Source: Actinomycetota bacterium (lineage in GTDB: Bacteria; Actinomycetota; Acidimicrobiia; Acidimicrobiales; Ilumatobacteraceae). Taken from it: DNA of 11,513 nucleotides. The notes below the pieces were generated by a model. The model was not told where the DNA came from and did no database searches. It worked only from the letters and a program-made list of their open reading frames with translations. Positions 3,479 to 11,513 of the stretch are shown here, one piece after another. Within the stretch, counting starts at the first letter, position 1. Each line of letters begins with the position of its first letter. A program made the position numbers and the translations under genes. Location of the stretch: the NCBI GenBank assembly GCA_009704065.1, contig WLEX01000017.1:1-11513 (forward strand), read 5' to 3'.

Positions 3479-4258
3479 TTACCAAGTTGCTGCATCGAGG
3501 GCTTTTCGCACACCCGACACAAAATCACCAACAGCCTCTGAGCCACCCTCGATCATTCGACGCACTACAGCCGCGCCCATAATGACTCCGTCAGATACGC
3601 GGGAAGCCTCCACTGCTTGTTCAGCATTAGATACACCGACGCCAACGAGTACTGGCTTATCGGTTACCTTCTTCACACGTGCAGCCAAAGTGGTGGCGGT
3701 ACTCGACAATTCGGAACGCTCACCAGTGACTCCCAACAACCCCACGGAATACACAAAACCACGTGCGCGCGCCACCACCAAAGGTAAACGAGCATCGGGA
3801 GCAGTTGGGGCAGCCAACATAATTGTTTCAATACCTGCAGCGTCTGCAGCAGTACACCAATCCCCTGCTTCTTCTAGAGGAAGATCCGGAATAATCGCAC
3901 CCGACACCCCAGCAGCAGCAAGACTCTCTGCAAATCGTTCGTGACCCGCATGAAAAACGGTGTTGTAGTAACACATCACCGCTAACGGAACATCTACGTC
4001 GAGGGTACGAATTTCTTGCAAAATAGAAATGGGAGTTGCGCCTGCATCGAGAGCCACCTGCGACGACTGCTGAATGATGGGACCGTCCATCACGGGATCA
4101 GAAAAGGGAATTCCAATCTCGATTGCATTCGCCCCATTGGCGGCACAAGCACGAACTGAGTCGATCCATCCGGGATAGCCACCCGTAATGTAGGGCACAA
4201 GTCCTTTACCACCCGCGTCGATTGTGCGGCGTAACGCAGTCTCGATTTTGCCTGTCAC
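3479..4258 (-). CDS. trpA: Tryptophan synthase alpha subunit
   Basis: A 259-residue TIM barrel. The family signature [15 protein letters not shown] gives catalytic Glu47 and Asp58, matching Glu49 and Asp60 of the Salmonella enzyme. Further on are P-D-L-P-L-E-E and the phosphate-binding segments G-V-T-G and V-G-V-G-V-S near the C-terminus. It cleaves indole-3-glycerol phosphate to indole and glyceraldehyde 3-phosphate and passes indole through the tunnel to TrpB. The start is GTG at 4258, overlapping the trpB stop as GTGA, a tight coupling that suits an alpha2-beta2 complex needing equal subunits. The small Cys/His-rich gene follows 6 bases after its stop. Confidence 0.96.
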
Positions 4259-5421
4259 TTGAGTCCGTCCAGGATGGTCATCATCTGGCCAACGTCTTTA
4301 TCTCCACGACCTGACAGGTTCATGAGAACTGTTTTACCTTGCATGTTCTTTGCTTCGCGACTAATCCACGCCATCGCATGCGCGCATTCAAGTGCAGGAA
4401 TGATTCCTTCTTCACGTGACATCAACTGGAAAGCTTCAATTACTTCCTCGTCGGTGACAGTTGGATAATGAGCACGCCCAATTGACGCAAGATATGAATG
4501 CTCTGGACCAACGCCTGGATAATCGAGACCGGCAGAAATGCTATGAGCCTCTGCTACTTGGCCGTACTCGTCTTGCATAAGGTAACTCTTCATGCCGTGA
4601 ACAACACCGGGCTGACCTCTTGTTACTGCAGCACCACCAGCAGGTTCGACACCGATTAGTTGTGCAGGCGTATCAACAAATCCTGAAAAGATTCCCATGG
4701 CATTTGACCCACCGCCAACACACGCGACCACATAATCAGGAGTAGTACCAAGTAGTTCATTGGTCTGTTCAAAAGCCTCAGTACCAATCACGCGGTGAAA
4801 TTGGCGAACCATATACGGGTACGGATGCGGACCCATAACTGAACCAAGGCAATAGTGAGTTGTCTCAACCGATGCGACCCAATCTCGCATTGCTTCATTC
4901 ACGGCATCTTTCAAAGTGCGGCTACCAGAAGTAACAGCCTCTACTTCAGATCCAAGCAAGCGCATGCGAAAAACGTTGAGTTCTTGACGCGACACATCAA
5001 CTTCGCCCATGTACACCTTGCATGACAAACCAAGAAGTGCAGCAGCAGTGGCAGAGGCAACACCGTGTTGACCGGCTCCCGTTTCTGCAACAATGCGCTT
5101 CTTGCCCATACGTTTTGCCAACAACACTTGACCAAGAACGTTGTTGATCTTGTGAGAACCCGTGTGGTTCAAATCTTCGCGCTTCAAAATCAAACGAATA
5201 CCTAGCTTGCGACTGAGGTTATGGCATTCCGTGATTCCGCTGGGGCGCCCGGCATACTCGTGCAACAACTGGTCGAGGTCACTGCGAAACATAGGGTCAG
5301 CCCAGGCATCGGCAAACGCTGCTTCCAACTCTTGACACGCAGGCACAAGTGTCTCGGGAACAAAACGTCCACCGAACTCGCCGAAGCGTCCATCTGAACC
5401 GGGGGTCACCATAATCGACAT
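4255..5421 (-). CDS. trpB: Tryptophan synthase beta subunit
   Basis: A 388-residue fold-type II PLP enzyme of the TrpB1 class, the partner of TrpA. It opens with [14 protein letters not shown]. The PLP lysine is Lys91 in H-T-G-S-H-K-I-N-N. The catalytic Glu113 sits in E-T-G-A-G-Q-H-G, matching Glu109 of Salmonella. The PLP-phosphate glycine loop G-G-G-S-N-A and the H-S-Y-L alpha-contact region are present. It condenses indole with L-serine to give L-tryptophan. The ATG at 5421 is preferred; a second ATG three codons later would also keep the family core. It follows trpF after 55 bases and overlaps trpA. Confidence 0.97.
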
Positions 5422-5476
5422 CTGTCAATTCCACCACGAAATGGCCCTAAACACATCACTCATTGCAAGTGACTCT

Positions 5477-6130
5477 TTACTCGTCCATCCAGTCATACGC
5501 CAGCACATCACCGGGGTCATATTCTGAACGAGAAACAGAACGAACGGCCTCTAGAAATCGCTTCAAGAGGAGCGGGTCTTTTCGGCCAGGAGCCGATTCC
5601 ACACCACTCGAAACGTCGACCCCGAAAGGCCTCACCGCTTCGATGCCACCAGCCACATTCTCGGGGCTCAAGCCTCCAGCCAAAATGATGTTGACACCTT
5701 CGGGGACTTCTCCTGCAAGCTTCCAGTCGAAGACTGAGCCTGAACCAGGCGACGGAGCGTCGAGAAGAATCAGTGGCGTATTGAATTCGTTTGCATGTAC
5801 AGAGTCGAGAGATCCGGCAGAGACTGCCTTGATCACCGTGCGAACATGCTGGGATACCCGAAGAACGTCGTCTGGTGATTCGTGGCCATGTAATTGAGCT
5901 GCCTTTACACCGCTCGCCTGCACCATCTCGATCACACGTTGTGGGAGCTCATCGCGAAAAACGCCCACTGTGAGAATTTCAGGCGGGAGTCTCCGCGTGA
6001 TGTCGTACACCTTTTGTGCTGCAATTTGCCGAACCGATGGCGCAAAGACGAACCCAATGGCATCCGCCCCGAGCGCGACTGCCAACAGGGCATCTTCTTC
6101 GGTGGTGACTCCGCAGATCTTTACGAACAT
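5477..6130 (-). CDS. trpF: Phosphoribosylanthranilate isomerase
   Basis: A TIM barrel of 217 residues from the preferred ATG at 6130. It begins M-F-V-K-I-C-G-V-T, with the general base Cys6, and has Q-L-H-G at about 79-82, the general acid Asp124 in L-L-D-A-P-S-P-G-S-G, and phosphate-binding A-G-G-L-S-P-E-N-V and F-G-V-D-V-S-S-G-V-E motifs. It performs the Amadori rearrangement of phosphoribosylanthranilate to CdRP, feeding TrpC. An in-frame GTG at 6151 would add seven residues (18 bases after trpC), but family members normally start just before V-K-I-C-G and neither start has a strong Shine-Dalgarno. A dedicated trpF is notable because many actinobacteria rely on bifunctional PriA for this step. 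Confidence 0.95.
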   Translation of the reverse strand: MFVKICGVTTEEDALLAVALGADAIGFVFAPSVRQIAAQKVYDITRRLPPEILTVGVFRDELPQRVIEMVQASGVKAAQLHGHESPDDVLRVSQHVRTVIKAVSAGSLDSVHANEFNTPLILLDAPSPGSGSVFDWKLAGEVPEGVNIILAGGLSPENVAGGIEAVRPFGVDVSSGVESAPGRKDPLLLKRFLEAVRSVSRSEYDPGDVLAYDWMDE

Positions 6131-6169
6131 GTCAGTACGGTACTCGCCCACTGAGGTGCGAAGGTGTGA

Positions 6170-6949
6170 TTAATCGACGCACAAGTCTGTGAGCGCGCGA
6201 ATGGGGTCCGACGAGGTCACCAAATGCTCACCCACTAACACTGCGTCGTATCCCGCTTGGCGCAATGCCAGTGCATCGTCTCTGCCTCGCACACCAGATT
6301 CAGCCACCTTGATGATTCCCTTTGGCATCATTGCCGCAACACGTACTGCACGATCCTGGTCGACTTCGAAGGTGACAAGGTCACGCTGATTCACACCGAC
6401 CAAAGTTGCTCCAGCAGACAACGCCCGGTCTAGCTCGCGCTCATCGTGCACTTCAACTAGTGCGTCAATATCAATCTCTGTAGACAGCGCGAGAAATGAT
6501 GCCAATTCGGCATCGGATAATGCAGCCGCAATCAAGAGCACACAATCAGCCCCCATAATTCGTGCGTCGCATACGTCGCGCGCGTCAACCGAGAAATCTT
6601 TGCGTATTACCGGAAGTGAACATGCAGAGCGAGCAGATTGCAGATCGGAGACCGAGCCACCGAAATGGTTGACATCGGTCAACACCGACATGCACGAAGC
6701 ACCACCTTGTTGATACATCGATGCAATATCGGCTGGATCGAGATCGATGTTGAGATCACCTTTAGAGGGCGACTTTCTCTTTAATTCCGCAATGACGGCC
6801 AAGTGCGGCGTCGTTGAAATCGCAGATGCGAACCCACGTGCTGGAGCACACGCCAAAGCAGCAAGACGAAGGTCTTCGAAAGTCCGCGCGTCTTCGTGGG
6901 CACGCTTGCGGTGCCACTGCAAAATGGAATCGAGATAGGTGCTAGCCAT
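6170..6949 (-). CDS. trpC: Indole-3-glycerol phosphate synthase
   Basis: A 259-residue single-function TIM barrel. The N-terminal helix begins Y-L-D-S-I-L-Q-W-H. Catalytic and substrate residues visible are Lys57 in A-E-L-K-R-K-S-P-S-K-G, Lys117 in I-R-K-D-F, Glu166 in A-L-V-E-V-H, the V-G-V-N-Q-R-D-L loop and the E-S-G-V segment near the C-terminus. It closes the indole ring of CdRP with loss of CO2 and water, giving indole-3-glycerol phosphate for TrpA. The start is ATG 6949, 20 bases after the monooxygenase-like gene. trpC, F, B and A are consecutive. trpE, trpG and trpD are not in the window, so the chorismate-to-phosphoribosylanthranilate steps must be encoded elsewhere. Confidence 0.96.
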   Translation of the reverse strand: MASTYLDSILQWHRKRAHEDARTFEDLRLAALACAPARGFASAISTTPHLAVIAELKRKSPSKGDLNIDLDPADIASMYQQGGASCMSVLTDVNHFGGSVSDLQSARSACSLPVIRKDFSVDARDVCDARIMGADCVLLIAAALSDAELASFLALSTEIDIDALVEVHDERELDRALSAGATLVGVNQRDLVTFEVDQDRAVRVAAMMPKGIIKVAESGVRGRDDALALRQAGYDAVLVGEHLVTSSDPIRALTDLCVD

Positions 6950-7339: not shown

Positions 7340-8647
7340 CTAAAAGCCCAAAATGGCTGAGACTTCTGCGACTAGGTCGGCGATGGGTACGCGGACCTGC
7401 TCAGTGGAATCGCGATGACGAATGGTGACCGCGTTGTCTTCTAGTGAGTCGAAATCAACTGTGACACACAATGGCGTTCCGATTTCGTCCTGGCGGCGAT
7501 ACCTACGGCCGATGGCTTGAGTCTCGTCGTAGTCACACATATATCTCTGTGACAACGTGCCATATATTTCCCGTGCCAAAGGAGACAACGTGTCTTTCTT
7601 TGACAATGGCAACACAGCAACCTTGTACGGCGCCAAACGTGGATGCAATCGCAACACGGTTCGTGGCTCATCGTTAACAATGTCCTCGTCATAGGCCGCC
7701 AAAAGAAATGCAGCCATAGTGCGGTTGGCCCCGGCTGCTGGCTCGATGACATAGGGGATGTACCGCTCATTAGTTGCTTGATCGAAGAAATCAAGTTTCT
7801 GACCAGAGGCATTGCTGTGTTGTGTGAGGTCGAAGTCAGTTCGCTGAGCGACACCCTCTAGTTCGCCCCAACCCCACGGGAACATAAATTCAACGTCGCT
7901 AGTACCCGCTGAGTAATGCGACAACTCATCTGCATCGTGTGCACGAATGCGTAACATTTCGCGTGGGATACCTAGATCGACATACCAATCAAGGCGTGCC
8001 TTGCACCAGTATTCGTACCACTTAGGACCTTCAGCTGGAGGAACAAAGAATTCCATTTCCATCTGCTCGAACTCGCGTGTACGAAAAATGAAGTTTCCAG
8101 GAGTAATTTCGTTACGAAAACTTTTACCCACTTGTGCGATACCAAACGGTGGTCGCTTGCGGCTTGTCTGTAAAACATTGGCAAAGTTCACAAACATTCC
8201 TTGGGCTGTTTCAGGACGTAGATACACATCGGCGCCTGAACCTTCAACAGGTCCAGCTGTTGTCTTAAACATGAGGTTGAAGGCTCGAGATTCAGTGAAC
8301 TGACAGCCCTTCATTCCTTGAGGGCAATCGCGAGTCTCAATATGATCTTCCCGAAAGCGGCGCTTACACACAGTGCAATCGACCAGCGGATCAGAAAAAT
8401 TAGCCAAGTGACCGCTTGCTTCAAATATTTGCGGTGGTCCGAGAATGGCAGCATCAATAAGAACCGTGTCATCGCGCTGTTGCACCATGGTGCGAATCCA
8501 TGCATCTTTTACATTGCGCAACATGAGGGAGCCCAATGGGCCGTAGTCGTATGAGGACCGGAAACCTCCATAGATCTCGGCGCTCGGATATACGTACCCG
8601 CGTCGCTTGCAGAGATTGACGATTTGCTCGAGGTCGCTTGCTGGCAT
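7340..8647 (-). CDS. glyS: Glycyl-tRNA synthetase, homodimeric type
   Basis: A 435-residue class II aminoacyl-tRNA synthetase of the alpha2 type, slightly short of the usual 450-460. The N-terminus has C-K-R-R-G-Y-V-Y-P-S-A-E-I-Y-G-G, followed by D-Y-G-P-L-G. A zinc-knuckle-like insertion has Cys91, Cys94, Cys108 and Cys115. R-P-E-T-A-Q-G (144-150) and motif 2, F-R-N-E-I-T-P-G-N-F-I-F-R (177-189), bind ATP and glycine. Motif 3 is G-A-N-R-T-M-A-A-F-L. The C-terminal anticodon-binding domain starts near L-A-P-Y-K-V-A-V-L-P-L. It charges tRNA-Gly in the cytoplasm. The start is ATG 8647, 11 bases after recO, so the two are probably cotranscribed. No tetrameric glyQ/glyS pair is present in the window. 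Confidence 0.96.
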   Translation of the reverse strand: MPASDLEQIVNLCKRRGYVYPSAEIYGGFRSSYDYGPLGSLMLRNVKDAWIRTMVQQRDDTVLIDAAILGPPQIFEASGHLANFSDPLVDCTVCKRRFREDHIETRDCPQGMKGCQFTESRAFNLMFKTTAGPVEGSGADVYLRPETAQGMFVNFANVLQTSRKRPPFGIAQVGKSFRNEITPGNFIFRTREFEQMEMEFFVPPAEGPKWYEYWCKARLDWYVDLGIPREMLRIRAHDADELSHYSAGTSDVEFMFPWGWGELEGVAQRTDFDLTQHSNASGQKLDFFDQATNERYIPYVIEPAAGANRTMAAFLLAAYDEDIVNDEPRTVLRLHPRLAPYKVAVLPLSKKDTLSPLAREIYGTLSQRYMCDYDETQAIGRRYRRQDEIGTPLCVTVDFDSLEDNAVTIRHRDSTEQVRVPIADLVAEVSAILGF

Positions 8648-8658
8648 AGGGGTTAAGC

Positions 8659-9378
8659 CTACAAGTGGCGGTCGAACACACCGAGGCTTCGGAGTCGCCG
8701 TTCAAGGTGGCTTTCCATTGCTTCCATAGCCAATTGGCTCACCTCATGTACCGCGGGAGACTCCTCGAGCGATAACGCCTCGTTCATGCGCCCACCGAGA
8801 ACCATTTTCATAATGTCGAGCGCTGCCGAAGAGATGGGAACACCGGATCGGCATGCTGCGCAGTGGCCACCGCCTTCCAGTACATCGAACGAGACAATAT
8901 TTCCCTCTTCACCGCACTGCACACAATGATCTATTTGAGGTCCGTGGCCTTCTATGGATAGCAGTCTCCAATAGAACGCTCCCAACATAAGAGGTGATCC
9001 ATGTTGATTCAGAGCGTGAAGCGCCCGAGATAACACTTCATACAGATGCGGTACTGGCTCCCTGTCTGGAGTCAATTTGTTAACCGCCTCCAACATCGAC
9101 AACCCCTGATTCAAACGATCAAAATCTGTTCGAAGATCCGAGTGCGTGTGAATGAGTTTCACCTCTGCAACGGTGTCTAGGTCTTTGCCGCTACGTAGCG
9201 ACACGTCGACATGACTCATTGGCTCGAGCCGTGCGCCAATCGAAGATTTAGTTTTGCGAACCCCGCGAGCAACTGCGCGAATTTTTCCATGGTGCTGAGT
9301 GAGAAGCACAACTACACGATCAGCTTCTCCGAACTTGTACGTGCCGAGCACAACAGCGTTGTCTCTATAAGAACTCAC
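8659..9378 (-). CDS. recO: DNA repair protein RecO
   Basis: A 239-residue protein with the RecO order: an N-terminal OB fold (Y-R-D-N-A-V-V-L-G-T-Y-K-F-G-E-A-D-R, then H-G-K-I-R-A-V-A-R-G-V-R), a helical middle and a zinc finger with Cys152/Cys155 and Cys173/Cys176. It anneals complementary strands and, with RecR, loads RecA on SSB-coated gaps in the RecFOR pathway. The GTG start at 9378 overlaps the stop of the upstream degenerate cis-prenyltransferase gene (GTGA), so translation of the two is coupled. recO beside a cis-prenyltransferase and glyS matches the mycobacterial neighbourhood as I recall it, although here the prenyltransferase homologue precedes recO instead of following it. Confidence 0.94.
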   Translation of the reverse strand: MSSYRDNAVVLGTYKFGEADRVVVLLTQHHGKIRAVARGVRKTKSSIGARLEPMSHVDVSLRSGKDLDTVAEVKLIHTHSDLRTDFDRLNQGLSMLEAVNKLTPDREPVPHLYEVLSRALHALNQHGSPLMLGAFYWRLLSIEGHGPQIDHCVQCGEEGNIVSFDVLEGGGHCAACRSGVPISSAALDIMKMVLGGRMNEALSLEESPAVHEVSQLAMEAMESHLERRLRSLGVFDRHL

Positions 9379-9992
9379 GAATCGAGTCCGCCAAAGCGGC
9401 GATGACGTCGATTGAAGTCATCGATAGCAAGTTCAATATGAGAAGAAATCATGTCTTCCCAATGGATATCAAGGAACACCAACTCGCTATAGGCCAATTC
9501 CCAAATCAATGATTTCGGAATCCGATCTGGGGGACCAATAACAACGACAAGGTCAGCCTCTGCCGTAGCCGGGGCAAGAACAGCTTCTGATATCGATTCT
9601 TCTGTGAGGCTGGAAGCATCAACACCGGCTTTGCGCAAATTCTCAATGGTGTGAGCAAAACGCATACGACCATCGGCATTGCAATCCACAATGACTGTTA
9701 AGCGATCATCTCGTTTCCACATAAAGCGACGCGACGAGGATTCCACAGAAAGTACGCCTGTAGTTTCAAGCAAGGCGGTGCGAAACACATCTTCGTCTTC
9801 GGATGAAAAATTCTCGCCATGATGCGGCAGTACCGACACCCAACGCGCTCCACCGGCTGCTGCCCCTACTGCCACCGATTCCAAACGTTGACGCCACTCC
9901 CGACCCGACATCTTCAACCAGTCGTGAGGGGTGCCACCTACGACCACCACATGGTCAAGGCCAGTTTCGGGTGACTCAGAACGATGCGGCAC
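9375..9992 (-). CDS. Catalytically degenerate cis-prenyltransferase homologue, NgBR/Nus1-like subunit
   Basis: A 205-residue UppS-fold protein that has lost its active site. Its N-terminal strand aligns without gaps to E. coli UppS around the P-loop: D-H-V-V-V-V-G-G-T-P-H-D-W replaces H-V-A-I-I-M-D-G-N-G-R-W, so catalytic Asp26 becomes Gly20, Asn28 becomes Pro22 and Arg30 becomes Asp24, with only the Trp kept. The C-terminal half also aligns without gaps: Arg194 becomes Val151, while Arg157 (Arg200), Trp164, Glu170 (Glu213) and the terminal R-R-F-G-G (residues 198-202) are retained. Its D-L-V-V-V-I-G-P-P-D stretch resembles D-L-V-L-K-F-G-P-V-D of human NgBR as I recall it. Alone it should be inactive; I infer that it supplies the R-x-G motif to the divergent catalytic UppS. 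The only in-frame start is GTG 9992, with GGGAG nine bases upstream. Its stop overlaps recO. Confidence 0.8.
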   Translation of the reverse strand: MPHRSESPETGLDHVVVVGGTPHDWLKMSGREWRQRLESVAVGAAAGGARWVSVLPHHGENFSSEDEDVFRTALLETTGVLSVESSSRRFMWKRDDRLTVIVDCNADGRMRFAHTIENLRKAGVDASSLTEESISEAVLAPATAEADLVVVIGPPDRIPKSLIWELAYSELVFLDIHWEDMISSHIELAIDDFNRRHRRFGGLDS

Positions 9993-10001
9993 ATAGCCAT
10001 T

Positions 10002-10006
10002 CTCCC
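10002..10006 (-). promoter_or_regulatory. Shine-Dalgarno site of the NgBR-like gene
   Basis: On the minus strand GGGAG ends nine bases before the GTG at 9992. Reading further upstream in frame, no ATG, GTG or TTG occurs before a TAG, so this site and the GTG together fix the start of the degenerate cis-prenyltransferase gene. Confidence 0.65.
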
Positions 10007-10012
10007 ACGCCG

Positions 10013-10026
10013 GCCTCTATCGAGGC
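10013..10026. repeat. Short inverted repeat in the divergent region
   Basis: GCCTC-TATC-GAGGC forms a perfect 5-base-pair stem with a 4-base loop. It lies 21 bases upstream of the minus-strand GTG. It could be a small operator or a hairpin in the leader of the minus-strand transcript, but a stem this short arises often by chance and no second copy was seen. Confidence 0.3.
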
Positions 10027-10070
10027 GTTGCACTGCCATCCACACAGCCAGTAACTAGGGTGCTTAGGTC

Positions 10071-10760
10071 ATGGATTCTTCACTTTTGCCCTCCCCCATT
10101 CATGTGGCTTGCATCATGGACGGCAATGGTCGGTGGGCCAACCGGCGTGGATTACCACGCAATGAAGGCCACACCGCCGGAGAAGAGGCATTAGCTGGAG
10201 CAGTGCGAGCAGCCTCGGCACGCCAGATCCCTTGGCTGACAGTTTTCGGATTTTCTACTGAAAACTGGGTACGACCACGAGCAGAAGTTCGTCATATTTT
10301 GTCTCTTCACCGAAAACTATTCGCTCGCATCGACGAGATGAATGAAAACAATGCGCGCACCCGCTGGATTGGTCGCCCGTTCAAGGAACGTGGAGCCAGG
10401 ACACCGATCTATGTTCAAAAAGCCATCACTAAGGCAATTGCCGACACAGCCCACAACTCTGGGCTCGAAGTGACCGTTGCCTTCGATTACGGCAGCAGAG
10501 CAGAACTGTTGCGCGCAGCACAATTGGCTATGAGTCACGGCGAGGTAACTCCCGACTCCATCTCTTCACACTTGTATAGCCCCGATATGCCTGATGTTGA
10601 TTTGCTTATTCGCACATCGGGTGAGACGCGAATTTCGAATTTTATGTTGTGGCAGATACCAGAGGCAACCGTCTATTTCACCGATCATGCATGGCCAGAC
10701 TTCAATGCTGCTGAACTCGACAATGCAATCTCTTCCTTCCAACGCGACAAACAACGATGA
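10071..10760 (+). CDS. uppS: Undecaprenyl (polyprenyl) diphosphate synthase, catalytic-type subunit
   Basis: A 229-residue cis-prenyltransferase. The P-loop M-D-G-N-G-R-W carries catalytic Asp17. G-H-T-A-G supplies His34, and F-S-T-E-N-W-V-R-P supplies Ser62, Asn65, Trp66 and Arg68. The pyrophosphate-binding arginines are Arg181 and Arg187 in I-R-T-S-G-E-T-R-I-S-N-F. It condenses isopentenyl diphosphate units in cis to make the lipid carrier precursor for peptidoglycan at the membrane. Two features are odd. Residue 200 is Thr where E. coli UppS has Glu213 (a Glu lies two residues earlier), and the protein ends R-D-K-Q-R, exactly at the Arg that starts the R-F-G-G motif of homodimeric enzymes. 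Loss of that motif suggests dependence on the divergent NgBR-like protein. The stop overlaps dinG (ATGA). The Shine-Dalgarno is weak (AGGG near 10057). Confidence 0.93.
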   Translation: MDSSLLPSPIHVACIMDGNGRWANRRGLPRNEGHTAGEEALAGAVRAASARQIPWLTVFGFSTENWVRPRAEVRHILSLHRKLFARIDEMNENNARTRWIGRPFKERGARTPIYVQKAITKAIADTAHNSGLEVTVAFDYGSRAELLRAAQLAMSHGEVTPDSISSHLYSPDMPDVDLLIRTSGETRISNFMLWQIPEATVYFTDHAWPDFNAAELDNAISSFQRDKQR

Positions 10761-11513
10761 GTAGGTCTCTTGCAGGCGACGAGGCAATTGCGGCTCTTCG
10801 TAAAGTCACCTCTTCATTCGACGGAGCAGAAGAACGACAAGGCCAGATCGACATGTCTCATGCAATCGCCGTAAACCTTGCCGCTGGTCGTTCAATAATT
10901 GTGCAAGCCGGAACTGGTACTGGCAAGTCACTCGGTTACCTGGTCCCTGCGTTACTCAATGGCAAAAAAACTGTGGTGGCCACAGCAACTAAAGCACTGC
11001 AAGATCAATTAGATCGAAACGATTTACCACTACTCGAGCAACACCTAGGCATCGACTTCACTTGGGCAGTTGTCAAGGGTCGAAGCAATTATGTGTGCAA
11101 GCAACGCGTCAGTGAATTATCCGATAAGTCGAATCAATTGGAGTTCGACGAAGTATCGAGTGGAACCAAGAAAGAAATCGACACAATAATCAAATGGGCT
11201 GCCAAAACTAAGACAGGTGATTTCGAAGAACTCGATCGTGTGCCAAGCGAGCGTGCACGTATGGCCACAAGCGTTGGTAGCGACGAGTGTCCAGGACGCA
11301 CAAAATGCCCTGTTGGCGGATCATGTTTCGCCGAGCGAGCGCGTGAAGCAGCAACCGATGCCGATGTGGTGGTAGTCAATTTGCACTTGTACGGACTCCA
11401 CGTAGCAAGCGGCGGGGCAATCCTTCCTCCCCACGACGTGGTCATCTTCGACGAAGCCCACCAGCTTGAAGCGGTCATGAGCGACACAGTGGGTGTCCAG
11501 CTCAGTGGTGGTC
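10757..11513 (+). CDS. dinG: ATP-dependent DNA helicase, DinG/XPD family, N-terminal part
   Basis: The first 252 codons of a superfamily 2 iron-sulfur helicase; the gene runs past the window end. After a D-E-A-I-A-A-L-R leader and a Q-x-x-M-S-H-A-type Q-motif region comes Walker A, G-T-G-T-G-K-S at residues 52-58. Four cysteines, Cys114, Cys178, Cys184 and Cys190, form the Fe-S cluster signature expected between motifs I and II. The Walker B D-E-A-H box is at 232-235. DinG-family enzymes unwind DNA 5' to 3', including R-loops and D-loops, in repair and replication-transcription conflicts. The ATG overlaps the uppS stop as ATGA, implying cotranscription and coupling. Motifs III-VI lie outside the window. 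YoaA-like paralogues share this layout, so the exact subfamily is uncertain. Confidence 0.9.
   Translation, partial: MSRSLAGDEAIAALRKVTSSFDGAEERQGQIDMSHAIAVNLAAGRSIIVQAGTGTGKSLGYLVPALLNGKKTVVATATKALQDQLDRNDLPLLEQHLGIDFTWAVVKGRSNYVCKQRVSELSDKSNQLEFDEVSSGTKKEIDTIIKWAAKTKTGDFEELDRVPSERARMATSVGSDECPGRTKCPVGGSCFAERAREAATDADVVVVNLHLYGLHVASGGAILPPHDVVIFDEAHQLEAVMSDTVGVQLSGG

Follow-up and report, generated by a model that had tools for sequence, protein, structure and literature searches.

Can the essential enzyme behind the lipid carrier of bacterial peptidoglycan be divided between two genes? The question is raised by an 11,513-nucleotide stretch of DNA (positions 1 to 11,513 of contig WLEX01000017.1, assembly GCA_009704065.1; hereafter the window) from an actinobacterium of the family Ilumatobacteraceae, in which two genes for members of the cis-prenyltransferase/undecaprenyl diphosphate synthase (UppS) superfamily, PF01255, stand back to back. 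We refer to the plus-strand gene and its product as P and to the minus-strand gene and its product as M. Bacterial cis-prenyltransferases are described as homodimeric, with heteromers typical of eukaryotes (review PMC7839719), and the short- and medium-chain enzymes are likewise described as homodimers (PMC7573591); one archaeal exception is on record as a heteromer outside the eukaryotes (cited in PMC8131916). Our results indicate that P and M very probably form a cis-prenyltransferase that is an obligate heteromer, supplies the peptidoglycan carrier and arose by gene duplication followed by reciprocal loss.

Active-site residues are divided between two adjacent genes

The original prediction, made from the DNA letters alone, placed a divergent pair encoding a two-subunit enzyme akin to eukaryotic DHDDS/NgBR at 9375..10760, and these coordinates proved right (Table 1). 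Both proteins belong to the superfamily, scoring above Pfam's curated cut-off of 27: P matches PF01255 profile positions 1-217 (E 2.8e-66, 223.6 bits) and M matches positions 110-219 (E 4e-13, 49.9 bits). Single-chain structure models were confident for each. As had been claimed, P of the window carries D17, N19, R21, H34 and both pyrophosphate arginines (R181 and R187, with S189 as well), ends in FQRDKQR without a C-terminal R-x-G, and has no Glu at the E. coli Glu213 position, where Thr200 stands. The description of M was equally accurate: Gly20 replaces the P-loop Asp, Val151 replaces the Arg194 equivalent, the Glu213 equivalent is kept as Glu170, and R-R-F-G-G lies at residues 198-202, followed by three more residues. 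The one nuance is R157, which occupies the second pyrophosphate-Arg position.

Residues were then counted in rows taken from fetched loci and aligned jointly, with fragments and duplicates left out and the window included (66 P, 64 M and 35 single-gene enzymes; residue numbers are those of the window proteins). M rows were picked as open frames, so their openness in the alignment is by construction. D17, N19, R21, H34, E64, N65, R68, R181, R187 and S189 are present in all 66 P and all 35 single-gene rows. The position of the catalytic Asp, which is Asp in 66/66 P and 35/35 single-gene enzymes, is Gly in 64/64 M; no M keeps the equivalents of N19, R21, H34, R68 or R181 (0/64), and the S189 position is Pro in 64/64. 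Tyr168, Glu170, Arg196, Arg198, Arg199, Phe200 and Gly201 are found in every M (64/64), as is RRFGG as a whole. Both the Tyr and the Glu of the Tyr-x-Glu motif occur in 35/35 single-gene enzymes and 64/64 M, and the Tyr occurs in 0/66 P. None of the 66 P has an R-x-G aligned with the motif or any residue at its Gly column, and the P tails vary in length and sequence and share no common substitute motif. In one single-gene row, the Arg of R-x-G is replaced by Leu. Three matches that appeared to contain an internal TGA (G428, G429, G391) were cases in which the profile overran the normal P stop; no RRFGG follows the stop in these three, and a chance RRFL occurs in L155.

Over 49 M rows, 19 alignment columns are invariant, all of RRFGG among them, and much of the remaining protein drifts. 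The median ratio of nonsynonymous to synonymous substitution rates (dN/dS, NG86 method, 27 usable pairs) was 0.25 for P and 0.46 for M, crude values given that many pairs are near saturation. M evolves faster than P, and both look to be under purifying selection. Since the residue pattern does not vary among the 66 P and the 64 M, and both genes are apparently under such selection, it reflects neither chance nor local decay.

Neither protein fits the description of a canonical homodimeric UppS, in which the P-loop Asp/Asn/Arg and the R-x-G lie in the same chain. P has the make-up of a catalytic subunit: its active-site residues are intact, and an aligned R-x-G is missing. M resembles the partner subunit, with a cis-prenyltransferase fold in its model, the catalytic Asp gone and the R-x-G retained. 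The two-subunit, DHDDS/NgBR-like interpretation is thus supported at the level of sequence, from which the heteromer itself is predicted.

The pair occurs throughout one family

All counts for the family refer to Ilumatobacteraceae (Acidimicrobiales), the family of Ilumatobacter coccineus, represented by 221 genomes. Counted by eye, 186 of these have exactly two PF01255 matches, 5 have three, 17 have one and 13 have none, the last group being of 84% completeness or less. Two matches were verified by sequence as P plus M at 64 loci and a few more; elsewhere this was judged from the number and strength of matches. The expectation that the two genes would co-occur across relatives is therefore borne out. 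Within the window's own genus, 23 of 24 sampled relatives have both a P-type and an M-type match and the remaining one (70% complete) has none, while all 16 relatives sampled from other families have one full-length match. P and M are divergent at 64/64 two-gene loci, with gaps of 26-664 bases as computed from aligned starts.

In three single-contig genomes that are 99% complete (G041, G158, G425), exactly two PF01255 matches are present and these are the pair. The M of G158 is identical over 188 residues to an Ilumatobacter coccineus protein annotated as 'undecaprenyl diphosphate synthase family protein'. The carrier-using peptidoglycan gene mraY scored over its cut-off in 21/21 genomes tried, including that of the window. 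The presence of mraY, together with the pair's standing as the sole PF01255 members of three complete genomes, counts in favor of the pair as the carrier enzyme. A separate canonical UppS, which the original prediction had named as the finding that would speak against it, was seen neither in these three genomes nor in the 71%-complete window assembly.

That assembly spans 1.41 Mb in 230 contigs, with the pair on contig C79. Its third PF01255 match, on contig C178, is truncated, 98% identical to P and without R-x-G. The contig holds a near-identical second copy of the P-dinG region, a duplication that suggests that the bin mixes more than one strain.

In a survey of 396 genomes sampled over the phylum, the M profile picked out the 11 genomes of the family, all at E 5.2e-52 or better. 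G058, the runner-up at 2.0e-28, matched at the place of its full-length enzyme, and unrelated heteromers may still exist elsewhere. Second PF01255 copies in other families of the order were considered as a further M/P division and rejected, as the whole ones span positions 1-219; where they could be placed they form a separate clade, and those of G118, G192 and G302 include fragments. Loci L138-L141 (families f31 and f15) and L128 (f29) likewise hold second divergent full-profile cis-prenyltransferases of a separate clade.

Family genomes with one match or without the pair

The original prediction had also held that no relative should carry only one of the two genes. Inspection of the 17 single-match genomes largely upheld this: 2 have both genes, 8 are cut at a contig edge and 5 have, in place of the pair, a full-length enzyme of another type, leaving 2 (G326 and G346) in which only M is visible. 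Both genes are present in G359, where M falls below the Pfam threshold, and in G324, where M is frame-shifted and lies about 2.3 kb from P. The contig end cuts the pair region in G185, G341, G351, G386, G397, G455, G462 and G479. G326 and G346 have a whole M on contigs that stop 1.2 kb and 0.2 kb upstream, respectively, with no P within that stretch. Wherever the contig permits a decision, both genes are present or neither is.

The five family genomes with full-length enzymes differ among themselves. G441 has a canonical enzyme, with RRFGG near its end, in a gene that diverges from dinG and is followed by recO and glyS. In G495 and G496 (genus g188), dinG and recO diverge with no member of this enzyme family between them (65 bases separate the two open reading frame starts in G495), and one full-length enzyme is encoded on another contig; in G495 it adjoins a trans-prenyltransferase-like gene, judged by eye in a check that covered the G495 neighborhood. 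In genus g188, it seems that this distant full-length cis-prenyltransferase took over from the empty uppS slot. G431 (72% complete) has a full-length enzyme of the same distant type, and recO was not found in this genome. G433 (81% complete) has no M match; its fragment of 72 residues, cut by a contig edge, shares 98.6% identity with the G431 enzyme. The remaining 8 sampled members of their genus (g21) have two matches.

Several loci bear on the layout of this region. The uppS slot at the dinG-recO junction is empty in genus g188 (L147 and L148, from G495 and G496), and the distant-enzyme observation extends to L110, L064, L108 and L163. In G347 a membrane-protein gene of 695 aa (L188, 4814-6901) lies between P and M, which are about 2.3 kb apart, and a similar gene lies in pieces between P and M in G324 (L189). 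In some members of genus g172 (L188, L189, L067), a membrane-protein gene separates P from M or precedes P.

M occupies the ancestral uppS slot

The flanking genes, which we take to be a dinG-type helicase and glyS, and recO, named from Pfam, place the pair in a conserved context. As read from our table of loci, recO immediately follows uppS in the same orientation at 28 of 35 single-gene loci and was unseen in the fetched stretch at the other 7. Where dinG was seen (12 single-gene loci), it is divergent from uppS in 11, at about 1 kb or more in L034 and L038. The prevailing single-gene order is thus dinG in one direction and uppS followed by recO in the other. At pair loci, P is followed by dinG on one strand and M by recO on the opposite strand, with glyS next where seen. 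M thus occupies the place that uppS held ancestrally, with P as its neighbor on the dinG side.

This synteny argues for a local bacterial origin. Descent from eukaryotic NgBR/DHDDS was considered and rejected: the ancestral synteny is bacterial, and sequence matches in the Protein Data Bank are nearer to bacterial enzymes, for M (E. coli UppS, E 1.1e-12, versus NUS1, E 0.73) as for P (a bacterial enzyme, E 5.2e-51, versus DHDDS, 3e-29). P is 40-49% identical (BLASTP) to single-gene enzymes of the order's other families (L004-L019, L055-L061). A species tree built from pieces of recO, glyS and dinG recovers the family as one clade and groups G441 with G495/G496 near its base (80/79 support). 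The free tree splits the pair rows, but forcing them into one clade is not rejected (approximately unbiased test, p-AU 0.267), which leaves room for the pair having arisen once. The enzyme tree shows P as one clade and M as another, both on long branches. P joined the distant rows L040 and L041 (96/93 support), a grouping that we put down to long-branch attraction. On balance we propose, with good confidence, that an obligate heteromeric carrier-lipid cis-prenyltransferase evolved independently in this bacterial clade, through inverted, in-place duplication of uppS and reciprocal loss.

A proposed mechanism and its alternatives

From these patterns we infer the physical complex, its activity, product and chain length, and the order of events. 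P would bind Mg2+ and both substrates through its P-loop, further polar residues conserved in its N-terminal part and the R181/R187/S189 site; in the human enzyme R205, R211 and S213 bind phosphate (PMC7573591). M, as a pseudo-enzyme, would dock onto P at the interface typical of cis-prenyltransferase dimers, and its C-terminal R-R-F-G-G tail, aided by Tyr168 and Glu170, would enter the active site of P, giving one working site per P-M heterodimer. Published structures show the R-x-G working across the interface both in the M. tuberculosis homodimer (Arg292*; PMC6450523) and between the subunits of human NgBR/DHDDS (PMC7573591). The product would be an undecaprenyl-type diphosphate for peptidoglycan. 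As to origin, a single uppS at the dinG/recO junction would have been duplicated in inverted orientation within one actinobacterial family; the copy in the old slot (M) would then have lost the residues with a role within their own chain, whereas the new copy on the dinG side (P) would have lost those that serve the partner chain.

Several observations weigh against this proposal. The residue division is not absolute: M retains the equivalent of R187, the second pyrophosphate Arg, in 26/64 rows, that of E64 in 8/64 and that of N65 in 4/64, and among P, 2/66 have Glu at the Glu213 position and 2/66 (L033, L095) have an R-x-G near the extreme end, unaligned with the motif. P and M are not sisters in the enzyme tree, unlike what local duplication predicts. 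Five family genomes (G431, G433, G441, G495, G496) have full-length enzymes in place of the pair, and the window's own assembly is just 71% complete. Lastly, an R-x-G is not always needed: Methanosarcina MM_0014, which has a TLGG tail instead, works as a homodimer (PMC8131916), and homodimers of human DHDDS are active, though poorly so (PMC7573591), so that P alone might retain some activity.

Three other explanations deserve consideration. The heteromer could have a main product other than the peptidoglycan carrier, such as a longer polyprenol or a shorter terpenoid precursor. Eukaryotic heteromers do yield longer chains (PMC7839719, PMC7573591), and the present data are silent on chain length. 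We nevertheless regard this as unlikely: the three complete genomes have no further PF01255 member, mraY was detected in every genome tried, the locus is that of the ancestral uppS, and the known archaeal heteromer yields C45-50 (PMC8131916).

The main rival to an obligate P-M enzyme is that P makes the carrier alone, as a homodimer without R-x-G, with M a regulatory or stabilizing pseudo-enzyme whose tail stays outside the active site. The active Methanosarcina mazei homodimer MM_0014 (PMC8131916) and the poor activity of DHDDS homodimers (PMC7573591) lend it plausibility. Yet M keeps exactly the elements known or thought to act in trans, RRFGG and the Tyr and Glu, in 64/64 rows while much of its remainder drifts, and the variable P tails offer no common replacement. 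This constancy on one side and lack of a shared tail on the other speak against a self-sufficient P, which we judge quite improbable.

That M is instead a decaying former UppS, kept solely through its coupling to recO while P is the only functional enzyme, is highly improbable: its old uppS slot, its 4-base overlap with recO in the window and its faster evolution would suit such decay, but 19 columns including the whole of RRFGG are invariant, dN/dS is below 1, P has lost what M retains, and G324 alone among the inspected M regions is frame-shifted, on a contig where a neighboring gene is broken too.

Features of the window

Coordinates are collected in Table 1. Beyond the features listed there, the minus strand at 3479-6949, upstream of the pair region, carries what is presumably a trpC-trpF-trpB-trpA run. 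No Rfam match was found in the window.

Table 1. Features of the P/M locus in the window
Feature	Position	Strand	Remarks
M	9375..9992	-	205 aa, GTG start; NgBR/Nus1-like, predicted non-catalytic subunit of heteromeric cis-prenyltransferase
P	10071..10760	+	229 aa; DHDDS/Rer2-like, predicted catalytic subunit
RRFGG, M residues 198-202	9387..9401	-	R-x-G tail with a predicted in-trans role in the active site of P
Y168-S-E170 of M	9483..9491	-	E. coli Glu213 position; retained in M
Gly20 of M	9933..9935	-	Replaces catalytic P-loop Asp (residue alignment)
DGNGR of P (D17, N19, R21)	10119..10133	+	Catalytic P-loop; D, N and R each in 66/66 P
R181, R187, S189 of P	10611..10637	+	Pyrophosphate-binding (S2 site) residues; 66/66 P; human equivalence by motif
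P/M intergenic region	9993..10070	.	78 bases between divergent starts; both promoters presumably inside
recO	8659..9378	-	Directly downstream of M, 4-base overlap; marks ancestral uppS slot; Pfam-named
glyS (presumed)	7340..8647	-	Next after recO; synteny marker
dinG-type helicase (presumed), gene start	10757..11513	+	ATG overlaps P stop; synteny marker

Relation to known cis-prenyltransferases

P and M recall eukaryotic DHDDS/NgBR (yeast Rer2-Srt1/Nus1), which also combines a catalytic chain lacking R-x-G with a pseudo-enzyme chain that ends in it. The bacterial genes differ in being adjacent and divergent, and, judged by eye from sequence and from the order of elements in the models, M appears to lack the N-terminal membrane segment and P the C-terminal helical domain of their eukaryotic counterparts. 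In the M model, two short strands (80-83 and 89-93) follow the third helix and precede the next strand, an arrangement reminiscent, by element order only, of the antiparallel betaC-betaC' of eukaryotic Nus1 (PMC7573591); neither NgBR nor Nus1 is among the 50 matches listed for the M model. P/M thus seems, by the logic of its sequences, to work like DHDDS/NgBR but to have a separate, bacterial origin.

Another parallel is MM_0618/MM_1083 of Methanosarcina mazei, a two-gene prokaryotic heteromer thought to make a glycosyl carrier (Emi 2019, as cited in PMC8131916); it is archaeal whereas P/M is bacterial, and the likeness is one of description. The homodimeric UppS enzymes of E. coli and S. aureus and Rv2361c of M. 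tuberculosis share the fold of both chains, the catalytic residues of P and the R-x-G tail of M. In those enzymes a single chain holds both residue sets, whereas here the sets are divided between two genes. No bacterial heteromeric cis-prenyltransferase was named in the titles and abstract openings returned by our literature search, whose coverage excludes most subscription papers.

The pair also carries a warning for annotation: the M gene, which databases label 'undecaprenyl diphosphate synthase family protein', probably encodes no enzyme by itself. Ilumatobacter coccineus, a named species listed in the taxonomy with strain YM16-304, and sisters that keep the ancestral single gene offer experimental access. 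Living material for comparison exists both in relatives whose gene is undivided and in lineages that have neither subunit but a full-length paralogue. An essential bacterial enzyme that works as a heteromer would break the homodimer rule for bacteria, and it would open to test how and why a symmetric homodimer becomes an obligate heteromer, and whether that change sets chain length.

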